Assembly (NCBI RefSeq): GCF_034008635.1
Contig: NZ_CP125378.1
Coordinates: forward strand, 3,531,501-3,595,500
Direction: 5' to 3'
Origin: Pseudomonas sp. P8_229
GTDB lineage: Bacteria; Pseudomonadota; Gammaproteobacteria; Pseudomonadales; Pseudomonadaceae
Length of the DNA: 64,000 nucleotides
Shown: positions 33,653 to 41,763 of the stretch, in pieces
How the letters are laid out: each line of letters begins with the position of its first letter
Numbering within the stretch: position 1 is the first letter of the stretch
Translations under genes and position numbers: made by a program
The notes under the pieces: generated by a model
Database searches by the model: none
Told to the model about the DNA's origin: nothing
Seen by the model: only the letters and a program-made list of their open reading frames with translations

Positions 33653-34714
33653 ATGGAAAATAATCAGCCGATTATCATCAAGCGCGTCAAGCGCATAGCC
33701 GGCGGGCATCACGGCGGGGCGTGGAAGATCGCCTTCGCCGACTTCGCCACGGCGATGATGGCGTTCTTCCTGGTGCTGTGGCTGCTGTCCACCGCCACAC
33801 CGGAGCAGAAGATCGCCATCGCCGGTTACTTCAAGGATCCGGTCGGCTTTTCCGAAAGCGGCACGCCGTACATCATCGACCTGGGCGGTACGCCGACCCT
33901 GGCCCCGGAAAATACCCTCAACCCTGAGGTGAAGTCGCAGCCGCAACCGGACAAGGTCACGGTCGATACCGAACAGGTTGAAGGCATGGCCGAGCAGGTC
34001 GAGAAGGAGCGTCTGGAGCTGTTGCTGCAAGAACTGCAGAACAAGGTCGACGAGAACCCGCAGCTGCAGAAGTTCAAGGATCAGATCCTCTTCGAGATCA
34101 CCCCGAACGGCTTGCGCATCCAGATCATGGACGCCGAGAACCGGCCGATGTTCGACTCGGGTTCTGCACGCTTGAAGCCGTACTTCGAAGACATCCTGCT
34201 GGCCATGGCCGACACCATCAAGGCAGTGCCGAACAAGATCAGCATCAGCGGCCACACCGACGCCAAGCCGTACACCGGCACCGGTGATTTCGGTAACTGG
34301 GAGCTCTCGGCCAACCGCGCCAACGCCGCGCGGCGTGCGCTGGTGGCGGGCAGCTATCCGGACGGGCAAGTGGCGCGGGTCGTCGGTTATGCCTCGTCGG
34401 CGCTGTTCGACAAGGAGAACCCGTTCAACCCGGTCAACCGCCGTATCGACATCGTGGTGCTGACCAAGAAGGCGCAAGCGGCCATCGAAGGCTCGCAAGG
34501 CGCCGACCCGGCCAAGCCCGCAATAGAAGGGGAGAGCGGCGCCGCGCCGGCGACGTCAGTCGACCCGAACGCGCTGCCGGCGGATCAGCAACCGGTGCCG
34601 GCGCATGAGCTGCGCGAACGGCTGAACCTGTTCGACGACGCGGCACCGAAACCGGCCGGGCCGGGGACTGCGCCGCCGCCAGCCACTGCACCGGCTCCCG
34701 CGCCCAAGCAGTGA
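33653..34714 (+). CDS. motB: Flagellar stator protein MotB
   Basis: A 353-residue peptidoglycan-anchored stator subunit. The single membrane helix carries the proton-binding aspartate (AFADFATAMMAFFLVLWLLS, Asp30). The periplasmic plug and linker (about 55-140) lead to an OmpA-like peptidoglycan-binding domain (about 150-280) with ISGHTDAKPY and NWELSANRANAARR. The C-terminus is a long proline/alanine-rich tail. A strong terminator follows. Confidence 0.97.
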   Translation: MENNQPIIIKRVKRIAGGHHGGAWKIAFADFATAMMAFFLVLWLLSTATPEQKIAIAGYFKDPVGFSESGTPYIIDLGGTPTLAPENTLNPEVKSQPQPDKVTVDTEQVEGMAEQVEKERLELLLQELQNKVDENPQLQKFKDQILFEITPNGLRIQIMDAENRPMFDSGSARLKPYFEDILLAMADTIKAVPNKISISGHTDAKPYTGTGDFGNWELSANRANAARRALVAGSYPDGQVARVVGYASSALFDKENPFNPVNRRIDIVVLTKKAQAAIEGSQGADPAKPAIEGESGAAPATSVDPNALPADQQPVPAHELRERLNLFDDAAPKPAGPGTAPPPATAPAPAPKQ

Positions 34715-34747: not shown

Positions 34748-34804
34748 GTTTCTGCCTGCGTCGCAATGACCAGTCGCAGTTTTCGCAATCACGGAAGATC
34801 AGTT

Positions 34805-35938
34805 ATGGAAAGACTCAAAGCCTATTTTCAGCGGCACGGTAACGCACCCTTCAAGTTCGGTGAGGGGCGAGTCAGTGGCTATATTTCCGCCACCCTCGGG
34901 CTATTGAGTCTGTTGGCGGTGTTCTGCTTCCTGTTTCCCGAGTGGCTGACCACAGCCGAACTGCGCAAGGTCTATGACGAGCAGTTCGCGCGCACCACGC
35001 TGTTGCTCGGTCTGGTGCTGTCGTTCAGTCTCGGCACCCTGAATATCCTGCTCAACAAACGCAAGCGCTTGGGGATTACTGGTCTGGTTGCATCAGGGCT
35101 GGCGGTGTTCCTCGGTGGCACCAATGTCCAGGTCAGTTCGATCGGACAGACGCCTTACTCGCTGGGTCTGGACTGGTTTGTTTTGGCGCTGCTGGTGTCG
35201 GCGATCGTGTTTATTCCTCTGGAAAAGCTCTATTCCAAGGATCCCGAGCAAAACATCCTGCGCCCGCACTGGCGCACCGACCTGACCTACTTTTTCGTCA
35301 GCCACATGCTGGTGCAGTTCATCCTGATCTTCATCACCGCCTCTTCAAGCTATATCGCCGGTTGGGCGGTGTCGCCTGGCTTGCAGGCAAGTGTGCAAAG
35401 CCTGCCGCTCGTTGTGCAGTTTCTGCTGGCGATCCTGGTCGCCGATCTCGGTCAGTATTGGCTGCACCGGCTCTACCATGTGGTGCCATGGCTGTGGCGC
35501 ATACACGCGGTGCATCACTCCAGCACGCACATGGATTGGCTCGCCGGTTCGCGCGTGCACTTCATTGAAATCCTGCTGACCCGCACTGGCGTGCTGGTGC
35601 CGTTGATGCTGCTGGGCTTCGCACCACAAGCGCTGAATGCCTATGTGATTCTGGTTGGTGTTCAGGCGGTACTGGCCCACGCCAACGTGCGGATCAACGG
35701 CGGCTGGCTGAACTACCTGATCGTGCTGCCGCGCTACCACCATTGGCACCATGCGCGGCACAAGGATTACATCTACAAGAACTATGCGATCCACACGCCG
35801 CTGGTGGACATGCTGTTCGGTACGTTCAAGCTGCCGCCGAAAGAATGGCCGGTACGTTACGGCGTGTTCGGCAAGGAACTGCCGGGCGGGATCGTGCGCC
35901 AGCATCTGTATGCGTTTCGCAAGCCTGAGCCGAAGTAG
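34805..35938 (+). CDS. Sterol desaturase/fatty acid hydroxylase superfamily protein
   Basis: A 377-residue integral membrane di-iron oxygenase-like protein with about six hydrophobic segments. The eight-histidine pattern of the family is present: LHRLYH, IHAVHHSSTHMDW and YHHWHHARH. The family inserts oxygen or double bonds into lipids; the substrate here is unknown. Start ATG 34805 follows GGAAG. Its location between motB and rsgA, genes that adjoin in PAO1 as I recall, shows that this stretch is strain-variable. It is convergent with the TIR-caspase operon and has its own terminator, so it is probably not part of that system. Confidence 0.88.
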   Translation: MERLKAYFQRHGNAPFKFGEGRVSGYISATLGLLSLLAVFCFLFPEWLTTAELRKVYDEQFARTTLLLGLVLSFSLGTLNILLNKRKRLGITGLVASGLAVFLGGTNVQVSSIGQTPYSLGLDWFVLALLVSAIVFIPLEKLYSKDPEQNILRPHWRTDLTYFFVSHMLVQFILIFITASSSYIAGWAVSPGLQASVQSLPLVVQFLLAILVADLGQYWLHRLYHVVPWLWRIHAVHHSSTHMDWLAGSRVHFIEILLTRTGVLVPLMLLGFAPQALNAYVILVGVQAVLAHANVRINGGWLNYLIVLPRYHHWHHARHKDYIYKNYAIHTPLVDMLFGTFKLPPKEWPVRYGVFGKELPGGIVRQHLYAFRKPEPK

Positions 35939-35955: not shown

Positions 35956-35979
35956 AGCCCCGAATGTTCGGGGCTTTTT
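35956..35979 (+). terminator. Terminator between the desaturase and the TIR operon
   Basis: AGCCCCGAA (35956-35964) pairs with TTCGGGGCT (35967-35975) and is followed by TTTT. It sits 17 bp past the desaturase stop and 14 bp from the end of the convergent TIR gene, and may act in both directions. Confidence 0.9.
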
Positions 35980-35992
35980 GTATCCGGTGGGG

Positions 35993-36484
35993 TTAGAAGC
36001 CGCGCCGAATCCGGTTCTTCAACCCCTCGTGGAACATCTCGGCATTGATCTTGTTGGCGCTGCGCGTCGATTGATCGCCGCTCACCGAGTCGAGCGTCAT
36101 TGAGCGCTTGATCGTCCCTTCGCTGCGATAAGCCTCGATGAAGAAATCCACATCGGTCGGTGTACTCAGTTTCGGCCACTTGTCCAGATAGGCCGGCAAT
36201 TGCGTGGGGCCGGTCTTGAACGAGCAGATCCGCCGATTGCTGATCGTCGCTTCGCCGATTTCGAACGGGACCCACCACGACAACGCGGTTTTCTCTGATA
36301 CCACCGCCAGCAAGTGCGTGCACTCGGTGATGTTGCGCGTGATGACCCCGGTGATGTCGTCGGTGGTCTGCGATTCCGGGTCGAGCACGTCGAGGTAGGT
36401 CTTGATGTTGGCCTGCATCAATTGGGTATTGATGGCCATGGCCTGTGGACGATCCATGTGGCGGTAGCTGATGAATACGGGCAT
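35993..36484 (-). CDS. TIR domain protein, third gene of the TIR-caspase operon
   Basis: A 163-residue protein that is essentially one TIR domain (about residues 1-120) plus a short C-terminal extension. The TIR hallmarks are the first strand PVFISYRH, the hydrophobic strand THLLAVVSEKTALSWWVPFE, and a glutamate (Glu75) in the place of the NAD-cleaving glutamate of enzymatic TIRs. It could make or cleave an NAD-derived signal, or be a partner of the other TIR. The ATG at 36484 overlaps the caspase-like gene's TGA by one base (TGATG), so the two are coupled. An in-frame extension to 36823 overlaps the caspase gene and has low-complexity Arg-rich translation, so it is rejected. Confidence 0.88.
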   Translation of the reverse strand: MPVFISYRHMDRPQAMAINTQLMQANIKTYLDVLDPESQTTDDITGVITRNITECTHLLAVVSEKTALSWWVPFEIGEATISNRRICSFKTGPTQLPAYLDKWPKLSTPTDVDFFIEAYRSEGTIKRSMTLDSVSGDQSTRSANKINAEMFHEGLKNRIRRGF

Positions 36485-37443
36485 CAGAAATGTCCTTTTA
36501 TGGCGAGTTCTCGGTAGTAAGCACCTAGGGCGGTGAGGCGGCAGCCGGTGGAATTCAGGGCGGCGTAGTACATGTGCTCGGCATCCACAGGCTCGATCAG
36601 GCTGTGGCGATTGCACATTTGCAGTTGCTTGAAGATGTCGCCGTGCTCGGGGTCGAACAGCGCTTCGGTGGGCTCGTAGCTGGGATCGAGTCTGAACACG
36701 AAGCTCGGCTCCGGGAACCAGTCCTTGAGTTTGCGCAGGGTCTCTTCGGCAATCAGCGGCGCGACCTCGCGCAGCGGCACAAACTGCGAGACATTGGTCT
36801 TGAATACCGGACGCTGCTCCCAAGCCCCCAGCGCATTGTCGACAAACGAGTAAACGCTACCGGGGGTGACCTTGCCGAGTACGTTGGCAGCGCCACCGTG
36901 CAGCGCTTGCAGCAACAGATCGGTGAAGATTCCGTGGCCGCGACTTTCCAGGGCGTACTGTTCTTTTTTGCAGGCCGTGAGAATGGTCACGCCTTCGCCG
37001 ATCACACTGCTGCCGCCACGCAGGTTGCGCATGGCCCCTGCTGCGCCGGCCTGGCAGCAATCGAGAATGATGATTTTGTTCTTGATGTGCGGGGCCTTGT
37101 CCGCCCATTCCAGAATGTCGCTGATGCGGATACCGTCTCCCTCAGGTTGATAGTCCTGGGGAATCAGTAGTCCTTCGTCAATGCTGGTGTCGAACTGCCC
37201 ATGACCGGCGAAGTACAGCAGTGCCACGTCACAGTCGCCTGAGAACAGGCTCTGAATCTGCTGTTTCATGTGGTTGAGCGTGAGTTTTTCTTCGGCTGAA
37301 GTCAGCACTTTGCTGCTGAAGTTCGGTCGCCCGTTGGCGTGACGCTCCAGCACCGAAGCCATGGCCATTGCGTCGTTGTTACAGCCGCTCAAGGGCGAGA
37401 CGTAGTCGTAGTGGTTGATGCCGATAAACAGTCCTTTGCGCAT
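36484..37443 (-). CDS. Caspase-like (peptidase C14) protease of the TIR-caspase operon
   Basis: A 319-residue protein with an N-terminal caspase/metacaspase fold (about residues 1-225). It begins KGLFIGINHYDYVSPLSGC, has the catalytic histidine in YFAGHGQ (His81) and the catalytic cysteine in IIILDCCQAG (Cys130). The C-terminal ~95 residues (from about 225, REVAPLIAEETLRKL onward) are not recognised and are a candidate ligand-sensing or substrate domain. In published TIR-caspase defence (type IV Thoeris) a TIR-made ADP-ribose cyclic signal activates such a protease, which then degrades host proteins. Here both neighbours are TIR proteins, with a 2-bp gap to the upstream one and TGATG to the downstream one. 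Confidence 0.9.
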   Translation of the reverse strand: MRKGLFIGINHYDYVSPLSGCNNDAMAMASVLERHANGRPNFSSKVLTSAEEKLTLNHMKQQIQSLFSGDCDVALLYFAGHGQFDTSIDEGLLIPQDYQPEGDGIRISDILEWADKAPHIKNKIIILDCCQAGAAGAMRNLRGGSSVIGEGVTILTACKKEQYALESRGHGIFTDLLLQALHGGAANVLGKVTPGSVYSFVDNALGAWEQRPVFKTNVSQFVPLREVAPLIAEETLRKLKDWFPEPSFVFRLDPSYEPTEALFDPEHGDIFKQLQMCNRHSLIEPVDAEHMYYAALNSTGCRLTALGAYYRELAIKGHF

Positions 37444-37445
37444 GG

Positions 37446-37853
37446 TTACACCGCCGTGTGCTGACGGATTGCACCGATGATGCTGTTGGTGTTCCACGCG
37501 CATTCGGCATGCGCCGCTTCACGCACCACGGCGGAAATACGCTCGGCGCCGAACGGCTTGATCGCGATGATCACCTTGCCCATGCGCTTGGCGATCTCGA
37601 TTTCCTTGTTGATCCACTTGCTGTAGGTCGAATACATCCCGGCCATGATCAGCACCGCCGAGCAAGGGCGAATCTTGTTTTCGATGGCTTCTTCGAGCTG
37701 CTTGTCGGTCTGCGCGCCCAGGATCGGATTGTGCGGCGGCACGGAAAAATTCTTGAAACTGAAATCCGGTTTGGCGCCGAGCAGGCGTACCAGATTGTCG
37801 TGAGCGTGGGCGTAGTTCCACGAATGGCTGATGAACAGGTGATAGGTTTGCAT
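37446..37853 (-). CDS. ThsB-like (MTH538/DUF1863) TIR protein, first gene of the operon
   Basis: A 135-residue protein that is a single TIR-like domain of the kind found in Thoeris ThsB. It starts TYHLFISHSW, has the mid-domain segment FKNFSVPPHNPI, the strand CSAVLIMAGMYSTYSKW, and Glu84 in KWINKEIEIAKRMGK at the place of the catalytic glutamate, ending in CAWNTNSIIGAIRQH. It is the best candidate for the NAD-using signal producer. ATG 37853 follows a strong ribosome binding site (GAGGAAG), and is the first gene of the operon. No membrane segment or sensor domain is attached, so how it detects infection is unknown. Confidence 0.9.
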   Translation of the reverse strand: MQTYHLFISHSWNYAHAHDNLVRLLGAKPDFSFKNFSVPPHNPILGAQTDKQLEEAIENKIRPCSAVLIMAGMYSTYSKWINKEIEIAKRMGKVIIAIKPFGAERISAVVREAAHAECAWNTNSIIGAIRQHTAV

Positions 37854-38065: not shown

Positions 38066-39097
38066 TTAGTAGCCGTTTTCCGGCAGGCTGGCGATGATCG
38101 AGCGGTAGCTGTTCATACGTTGCTGCTGCACGCGGCCATCTTCCAGGGCCTTGAGCAGTGCACAGCCCGGTTCGCGGTCGTGTTTGCAGTCGCGGAAGCG
38201 GCAGGTGCCGAGCAGATCATCGAACTCGATGAAACCGGCTTCGACGTCGGCGCGGCTGACGTGGCCCAGGCCGAACTCACGGATACCCGGGGAGTCGATC
38301 AGCTCACCGCCACCGGGGAAGTGGAACAGGCGCGCGGTGGTCGTCGTGTGCGTGCCCTGGCCGGACAGCTCGGACAACGGCCCGACGCGGGTTTCGACTT
38401 CCGGCAGCAGGCTGTTGACCAGCGACGACTTGCCGACACCGGACTGGCCGACGAACACACTGATGCGCCCGTCGAGCTGCTTCTGCAACTGCTCCATGCC
38501 GTTGCCGTGATGCGCCGAGACTTCCAGCACCGGATAACCCAGCGTGCGGTACACCGCCAGCAGCGCATTGAGCGCCGGAGCGTTTTGCTCGTCGATCAGG
38601 TCGAACTTGTTCAGCAGCAGCAACGGGCGGATGCCGGCGTGTTCGGCGGCGACCAGATAGCGGTCGATCAGGTTGGCGTGCGGCTCAGGCAGTGGCGCGA
38701 AGACGATGACGATCATGTCGACGTTGGCCGCTACGGGTTTGAGCTGACCACGGCTGTCCGGACGGCACAGTTCGGTGGTGCGCGGCAGTTGCGCGACGAT
38801 CACCCCGATGCCCTGATTGCCGGCGCGCCAGACGACGGTGTCGCCGGTCACCAGTGCTGGCAGGTTGGCGCGCAAGTGGCAGCGGAACACCTGGCCGGCC
38901 TGATCGCCGTCAACAGCTTCGACCTCGACCTGCACACCGAAGTGGGCGATCACCAGGCCGGTTTGTTCCGGGCCCAGGTCGCCGCCCTCCAGGGCTTCGA
39001 CCGCCGAGGACTCGCGTTTGGCGGCACGTGCGGCGCGCTCGCCCTGAATCTTTTCGATGCGCCAGTTTTGACGACGATTGAGTTGGCGTTTGGCCAT
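38066..39097 (-). CDS. rsgA: Ribosome small-subunit-dependent GTPase RsgA
   Basis: A 343-residue late 30S assembly GTPase. The order of motifs is circularly permuted, as in the family: an OB domain, then the G4 NKFDLI, then the P-loop [12 protein letters not shown], then the switch [10 protein letters not shown]. The C-terminal zinc site is formed by the cysteines in [17 protein letters not shown] basic N-terminus ([16 protein letters not shown]) is typical. It is divergent from orn with 107 bp between them. Confidence 0.96.
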
Positions 39098-40716: not shown

Positions 40717-41763
40717 ATGCATTCACTCACCCCGGAATTTCTTGACGCCTTGCGCTTCGACGGTCTTCAGATTGCGACGCTTCGTGCATTGGGGGAGTTT
40801 CGGGGTAAGCAACAACTGTTCGTTGCTCAATCGCCGCAGGTCCTCCAGGGGCTTACGCAGATAGCCGTAATTGAATCCACGGAGTCATCTAACCGACTGG
40901 AGGGTGTAACTGTCGCGCCAGCGCGATTGAAGTCACTGATGAGCAAAAACGCTGACCCCAAAAGCCGATCCGAACAGGAAATTGCTGGCTATCGGGACGC
41001 TCTGTCACTCATCCATGAATCTGCCGATGGAATGCCATTTTCCGAAGGTGTTCTTAGACAGTTACATAGTCTTCTTTACCGCTATCTACCTCAGGATGGT
41101 GGTGAATGGAAGGCGATGAACAACGACATCATTGAGCGCCATGCCGATGGTTCATCGCGGATTCGCTTCCAACCTATTCCTGCTCATATGACCCCTGTTG
41201 CGGTGACTGAAACCCTGGCGTATTACCACCGGGCGCTGGCATTGAATCTAGCTGACCCTCTGGTTTTGGTGCCGCTTACGGTCCTCGACTTCCTTTGCAT
41301 ACACCCCTTCTCTGACGGCAATGGTCGCGTCGCTCGTCTGCTGACATTGCTGCTGCTCTATCAATTTGATTACAGAGTCGGGCGATTTATCAGTCTTGAA
41401 CGGATATTCGAGGAATCAAAGGAGGGCTATTACGCAACGCTTGAGCTGAGTTCTCAGGGGTGGCACGGGGGTACGCATGATGTTCGGCCATGGATGGATT
41501 ATTTTTGGGGGGCAATGCTTAGAGCGTACAAAGAGTTCGAGGAGCGAGTGGGCACGATAGAGAAGCGTCGAGGGGGTAAAAGCGATCGAATCAGAGACGA
41601 AGCCTTGAGGCGAGTCCTCCCTTTTTCCATCTCGGAAATTGAAGAGTCCTGTCCGGGAGTCAGTCGCGACACAGTGCGCCTGGTTTTACGATCACTGAAA
41701 GCAGAAGGGCTGATTGAGCCGACAGGTAAGGGGCGTACAGCCAAGTGGAGAAAACCGGCATAG
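40717..41763 (+). CDS. Fic family protein (probable AMPylase) with C-terminal winged helix
   Basis: A 348-residue protein that would transfer AMP (or another nucleotide part) to a target hydroxyl. The full Fic motif HPFSDGNGRVAR is at residues 196-207. The inhibitory motif SNRLEG (Ser58 to Gly63, the [S/T]xxxE[G/N] class II form) sits in the N-terminal helix, so it is probably autoinhibited without a separate antitoxin. The last 60 residues form a winged helix-turn-helix (ISEIEESCPGVSRDTVRLVL, then a wing). SoFic-type proteins share this layout. The gene is clearly less GC-rich than its neighbours and inserted between core genes, suggesting acquisition. Ends 2 bp before the queG stop on the opposite strand. 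Confidence 0.92.
   Translation: MHSLTPEFLDALRFDGLQIATLRALGEFRGKQQLFVAQSPQVLQGLTQIAVIESTESSNRLEGVTVAPARLKSLMSKNADPKSRSEQEIAGYRDALSLIHESADGMPFSEGVLRQLHSLLYRYLPQDGGEWKAMNNDIIERHADGSSRIRFQPIPAHMTPVAVTETLAYYHRALALNLADPLVLVPLTVLDFLCIHPFSDGNGRVARLLTLLLLYQFDYRVGRFISLERIFEESKEGYYATLELSSQGWHGGTHDVRPWMDYFWGAMLRAYKEFEERVGTIEKRRGGKSDRIRDEALRRVLPFSISEIEESCPGVSRDTVRLVLRSLKAEGLIEPTGKGRTAKWRKPA

Follow-up and report, generated by a model that had tools for sequence, protein, structure and literature searches.

The window, by which we mean the whole 64,000-nucleotide stretch of DNA analysed here, carries on its minus strand a packed trio of genes, TIR1, CASP and TIR2, that is probably a TIR-caspase system like type IV Thoeris, acting by abortive infection: two proteins make the signal and a single one carries out the execution. 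On this reading TIR2 can act without TIR1, and the catalysis of TIR2 is useful only together with CASP. We take the trio to be a real TIR-caspase operon that would be new as a variant, in that its two TIRs are separated in nature.

TIR1 (37446..37853, minus strand), recognized from its frame, Pfam and homologue residues, encodes a ThsB-like TIR protein of 135 amino acids, a predicted NADase or cyclase with S78, W80 and E84, this glutamate sitting in KWINKE. Its start at 37853 is the one common to relatives, and a longer frame exists upstream. The stop of TIR1 lies 2 nt ahead of the ATG of CASP (36484..37443, minus strand; frame and Pfam), which encodes a caspase-like protease of 319 amino acids with H81 in AGHG and C130 in DCC. 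The CASP stop in turn overlaps, as TGATG, the ATG of TIR2 (35993..36484, minus strand; frame and Pfam), whose product is a second TIR protein, of another subfamily, with 163 amino acids and the residues W70, W71 and E75, the last in WWVPFE. The order, sizes, motifs, 2-bp gap and overlap of the three minus-strand genes had been described in an earlier reading of the sequence alone (hereafter the sequence-only reading), and all are confirmed. No fourth gene of the operon is present among the open reading frames of the window.

The same reading placed the cassette between motB and rsgA. Locus comparison agrees that both genes flank it, with rsgA (38066..39097, minus strand), the flank common to homologous cassettes, on one side and motB (33653..34714, plus strand), which converges on the cassette, on the other. 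However, a fatty-acid-hydroxylase-like gene (PF04116 by Pfam; 34766..35938, plus strand), optional in relatives, separates the cassette from motB. The surroundings also include orn on the rsgA side and motA on the motB side, and a Fic/DOC family protein (PF02661) is encoded nearby at window positions 40717-41763. An intrinsic-terminator-like hairpin from a terminator scan lies 3' of TIR2 (35956..35975, minus strand); it is weak alone, the region holding two such hairpins against 1.9 expected by chance.

Pfam assigns TIR1 to ThsB_TIR (E-value 7.7e-15), CASP to Peptidase_C14 (3.3e-19) and TIR2 to TIR_2 (1.7e-11), and PADLOC matches the cassette with its ThsB and caspase models. The two TIR proteins are accordingly assigned to distinct subfamilies within one operon. 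The ThsB_TIR family matches only these two places, at E<=0.001, in the genome of the window, a single contig of 6,365,050 bases. The sequence-only reading depended on its catalytic residues being conserved across the family, and they are: TIR1 S78, W80 and E84 are each invariant in 76/76 homologue rows, H81 and C130 of CASP are each present in 82/82, and E75 of TIR2 is present in 78/78 rows from cassettes with CASP. These rows leave out the broken or cut copies L027, L124 and L125, and in the 78 rows of TIR2 the window and the copy in its own genome are counted separately. The choice of C130 as the catalytic cysteine also proved right, given that among 35 divergent caspases position 130 is Cys in 34, the exception being L125, and position 129 is Ser in 16; H81 is kept in all 35. 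Altered residues were seen in three of 121 caspase proteins, namely N at position 81 (P0107) and Y (P0110) or F (P0119) at position 130. P0119 seems to come from locus L125, as the contigs of both measure 427,122 bases; in L125, C130 is changed to F and both TIRs are gone, there being no TIR gene between rsgA and motB. Residues 1-209 of a structural model of CASP align with caspases and with MALT1. The C-terminal ~95 residues are conserved and, in the model, may weakly resemble a winged helix.

Type IV Thoeris (Rousset 2025) reportedly combines a TIR protein with a caspase-like protease and uses N7-cADPR. The accessible portions of PMC12847820 and PMC13373217 give the same composition and signal with reference to Rousset 2025, and those of PMC12847820 state that TIR-made N7-cADPR activates the caspase-like protease. 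The cassette has this architecture, with a ThsB-like TIR and a caspase-like protease encoded in one operon, and it has the TIR Glu and the protease His/Cys dyad as predicted catalytic residues. By architecture it fits type IV Thoeris; it differs from the systems outlined in those portions by adding a second TIR of another subfamily, and its signal and activation are only predicted. The sequence-only reading's proposal of a TIR-caspase immune cassette finds support in the protein families, the gene order, the conserved catalytic residues and plasmid-borne relatives.

Other classes were considered and rejected. For types I and II Thoeris, the operon lacks ThsA (SIR2-SLOG or TM-macro), its effector gene being Peptidase_C14. 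For type III (NCBIfam ThcB4, NF058526), TIR2 scores 12 bits against a cut-off of 220. CASP does match the caspase domain of the EACC1-associated caspase family (caspase_w_EACC1, NF047832) over 200 residues, but at 89.8 bits it is below the curated cut-off of 140, and its partner is a TIR. Multi-TIR Thoeris systems, as far as the accessible text of their reports goes (ThsA/ThsB1/ThsB2 of S. aureus, PMC12578639; multi-ThsB systems of Bacillus, PMC11204291), resemble the cassette in having at least two TIRs and one effector. However, their effector is SIR2-SLOG or TM-macro where the cassette has a caspase, and TIR1 of the cassette is dispensable in some natural lineages.

In 49 loci from other Pseudomonas genomes, CASP and TIR2 matched in all 49 and TIR1 in 46. 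The gap between TIR1 and CASP is 2-4 nt in 44/46 loci, and the 1-nt overlap between CASP and TIR2 is retained in 45/49, the exceptions being L047 and three loci whose caspase is broken. Because partners and spacing are kept across these loci, the packing of the genes is not chance. The site is also kept: rsgA adjoins the cassette in 48/49 loci (a hydroxylase lies in between in L042), and motB is within the fetched stretch in 43/49. When distinct strong caspase loci were pooled with the window's genome included, 79 of 84 had rsgA in the fetched stretch, and the five without it were one from Salmonella and four from IMG/VR. Two rsgA-site cassettes, L027 and L048, have a broken caspase frame with TIR1 and TIR2 intact.

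A lack of co-inheritance had been named in the sequence-only reading as something that would count against it. CASP was found in 18 of 199 Pseudomonas genomes taken in one draw (E<=1e-20), TIR2 in 36 and TIR1 in 18 (E<=1e-8). Seen from CASP, the genes travel together, with TIR2 in 18/18 and TIR1 in 15/18 of the CASP genomes; seen from TIR2 they do so only in part, as 18/36 TIR2-bearing genomes of the draw gave no CASP match.

It might seem that a cassette at a fixed chromosomal site beside core genes is a housekeeping or stress-induced cell-death module with no antiphage role. The neighbourhood is compatible with this, as five of the six neighbour genes scanned are housekeeping-like and the other encodes the Fic protein, and so is the scan of the cassette region, which detected no sigma-70-like promoter. 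However, we consider such a module improbable, because the cassette is patchy, with a CASP homologue at E<=1e-20 in 50/398 Pseudomonas species genomes, and because empty sites are common. We found rsgA in 58/59 genomes, and among the 30 best rsgA matches, 7 had the cassette, 19 had motB near rsgA without the cassette (two of these with a hydroxylase between the genes) and 4 showed neither within reach, although in one of the last, G406, the cassette lies further on. Near relatives are over-represented in this set, since the best matches were taken. Further points against a housekeeping module are that partial loss is repeated and that plasmids from several phyla carry homologues of CASP; there are 88 matching records, of which 42 cover 80% of the query, and 42/88 are predicted to be conjugative.

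Homologues of CASP were found in 3/369 genomes sampled from the class, counting that of the window, and in 7/398 drawn from the phylum, two of these from Pseudomonas. We inspected 30 divergent loci: 13 from the 88 plasmid records, the two phage-collection records, four of the six IMG/VR loci and 11 genome loci; of the last, L047 and L048 sit at the rsgA site, which leaves 28 loci elsewhere. A TIR1-class gene is upstream of CASP in 29/30, mostly <=20 nt away, and is divergent from CASP in L070; in L084, an IMG/VR locus outside the list of 30, it lies downstream. All 23 of the 29 TIR1-class genes that were scanned match ThsB_TIR above cut-off.

A TIR2 homologue is present in the fetched flanks of 8/28 systems away from the rsgA site, in the order TIR1-CASP-TIR2 in L065, L066, L067 and L129 and in other orders in L069, L070, L127 and L133. 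In addition, L200, from another genus, has CASP and a TIR2 with the Glu. The presence of two TIRs, which the sequence-only reading called unusual, is therefore less so than it seemed, the more as multi-TIR Thoeris is already described in the accessible parts of PMC12578639 and PMC11204291; still, no TIR2 was detected within the fetched flanks of TIR1-CASP in 20/28 sampled systems. The two-TIR arrangement is a recurrent variant that reaches beyond this lineage. By analogy with those other systems, and from them only, TIR1 may also be sufficient for CASP.

Some neighbouring genes of these relatives are worth recording. Small RyR-like genes adjoin the TIR-caspase pair in L070, L073, L076 and L078, the one in L073 matching PF02026 at E 0.0022, below cut-off, and the others being assigned by resemblance. 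Phage RyR proteins are reported, in the accessible part of PMC13232231, to degrade or sequester cADPR signals, so the RyR-like neighbours may be a host off-switch. An S8 subtilisin-like protease gene lies directly 3' of the caspase in L069 (annotated) and in L127 and L133 (by resemblance), and a protease cascade is possible. P. baetica has a second locus (L049:1-7455) with several TIR-like genes, another caspase-like gene, a frameshift-broken caspase and an intact TIR2, and with no rsgA in the fetched stretch. L128 (G991) and L129 (G1009) are second, divergent TIR-caspase systems, with 47-49% identity, alongside an rsgA-site cassette.

The relation between the two TIRs can be judged from cassettes that have naturally lost TIR1. 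Among 77 rsgA-linked rows, which leave out L027, L124 (cut by the contig end) and L125 (dead caspase), TIR2 is present in 77 and TIR1 in 71. The six rows without TIR1 (L020, L046, L063, L114, L122 and L123) all hold an in-frame stub, of 33, 33, 33, 26, 23 and 55 codons, that retains the start, the end and the 2-nt gap to CASP. The CASP tree implies three losses of TIR1, with four related stubs forming a clade (SH-aLRT 100); the rsgA tree implies four, and a tree uniting the four stub carriers is not rejected (p-AU 0.699). In this four-species lineage, omega is 0.05-0.12 for CASP and 0.02-0.08 for TIR2 at dS 0.14-0.34, next to medians of 0.071 and 0.152, respectively, for TIR1-bearing pairs. 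H81, C130 and the E75 of TIR2 are retained in 6/6 stub-carrying cassettes. In the three stubs compared, per-site nonsynonymous change exceeds synonymous change; that they are open and in frame despite this excess suggests that they are kept for coupling and not for their peptide. No TIR1 was found elsewhere in 3/3 stub genomes at E<=0.01, in a search that held no positive control and did not extend to the genome of L123. At E<=1e-8, TIR1 was not found in G401, G402 and G466, and the same query matches 18/199 genomes. We infer that TIR2 probably suffices as the partner of CASP in these lineages, but they could be fed by an unrelated TIR encoded elsewhere. This deletion series of single genes at one chromosomal site, rsgA-motB, is new here.

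Of the three options that the sequence-only reading offered for the pair of TIRs, the best fit is that both are sensors or producers. Cassettes without TIR1 that retain CASP and a TIR2 with the Glu speak against the other two, in which the TIRs form an obligate heteromer or TIR1 is the producer and TIR2 its regulator. An obligate sensor-producer pair in the style of staphylococcal Thoeris, with one TIR binding a phage protein and recruiting the other to make the signal, has a precedent in the two TIRs that act as one complex in S. aureus (according to the accessible part of PMC12578639), and the sharing of an operon by TIRs of distinct subfamilies is in keeping with it. It is nevertheless unlikely, considering the three losses of TIR1 with CASP and TIR2 kept under selection, the unbroken conservation of the TIR1 Glu, which is unexpected in a mere binder, and the 20 sampled systems in which TIR1-CASP had no TIR2 detected nearby. 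Even less credit is due to TIR2 as a brake or regulator that degrades the signal or restrains the caspase while TIR1 is the sole producer. TIR2 is never missing from rsgA-linked cassettes with an intact caspase, which would be expected of an antidote, yet CASP lacks a detected TIR2 in those same 20 systems, a brake would be pointless in lineages where CASP and TIR2 persist under selection without a producer, and E75 is retained only alongside CASP.

This last observation comes from the 18 genomes of the 199-genome draw that have TIR2 without CASP. All 18 genes adjoin rsgA, and motB is on the other side in 17 and not within reach in L175. In 15, the spacers are so short (117-266 nt on the rsgA side and 46-220 nt on the motB side) that TIR2 stands alone; in L170, aminotransferase-like and LysR-like genes (by resemblance) intervene, and L199 has a 0.94-kb stretch with no clear caspase remnant. 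At position 75 the solitary genes encode L (10 genes), Q (4), S (2), G (1) or A (1), so that Glu is found in 0/18, against 78/78 rows with CASP. The frames of the solitary genes are open, and omega is 0.02-0.17 in seven pairs with dS <0.7, with a median of 0.23 over 65 pairs with dS <1.2 (L199 left out). It is important to note that this residue-partner correlation rests on few independent events, one or two: 16 of the 18 Glu-less genes form one clade (100/100), L170 lies outside it, and L199, a long branch, is its closest neighbour. Two events are counted under parsimony, and a single origin for the whole set is not rejected (p-AU 0.324). Among the 120 listed of 435 homologues of one solitary TIR2, 62 have the E and 58 do not, and among the matches listed many of those lacking the Glu carry the name 'molecular chaperone Tir' in records from Pseudomonas. 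Loss of Glu without CASP is no rule for TIR1, because the two solitary TIR1 homologues at the rsgA site (L171 and L172) keep it; a third TIR1-like gene, L176, lies away from the site. Because TIR2 retains the Glu alongside CASP and lacks it in the solitary genes, the chemistry of TIR2 most likely serves the caspase.

Returning to the preferred reading of two signal producers and one executioner, we infer its NAD chemistry, signal, sensing, site of activation and protection as follows. TIR1, TIR2 or both would sense infection, and each would cleave NAD+ through its glutamate to make a cyclic ADP-ribose type signal. This signal would switch on CASP, perhaps through the conserved C-terminal domain, and the activated protease would stop the infected cell. 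TIR1 and TIR2 would be parallel inputs and not obligate partners, TIR2 and the caspase would work alone where TIR1 has been lost, and TIR2 catalysis would be useful only alongside the caspase.

A more speculative proposal, to which we give somewhat less than an even chance, is that the rsgA-motB site is a long-lived immune locus that is dismantled stepwise. Its states would be the two-TIR caspase cassette, CASP and TIR2 behind a TIR1 stub that is retained solely for translational coupling, a solitary TIR1, a dead caspase, and a solitary Glu-less TIR2 under purifying selection. The last would be an immune pseudoenzyme that has been domesticated for a new task, e.g., the non-catalytic binding of a phage protein or an NAD signal. 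We found no report of a two-TIR caspase system or of a Glu-less solitary TIR2 in the open-licence literature searched, which is no proof of absence.

Whether the TIRs of multi-TIR Thoeris operons are parallel sensors or one complex has been answered differently, as far as the accessible text of the reports goes: a capsid triggers a ThsB1-ThsB2 complex in S. aureus and a single ThsB is sufficient against one phage in streptococcal Thoeris (PMC12578639), and independent ThsBs are held most likely for the multi-ThsB systems of Bacillus (PMC11204291). The loci described here supply natural single-gene deletions, found at one site and in close relatives, and so make the question testable for a caspase effector. 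Moreover, the missing Glu in 18/18 solitary TIR2 genes links the chemistry of TIR2 with the caspase and suggests that pseudomonads have domesticated a dead TIR.
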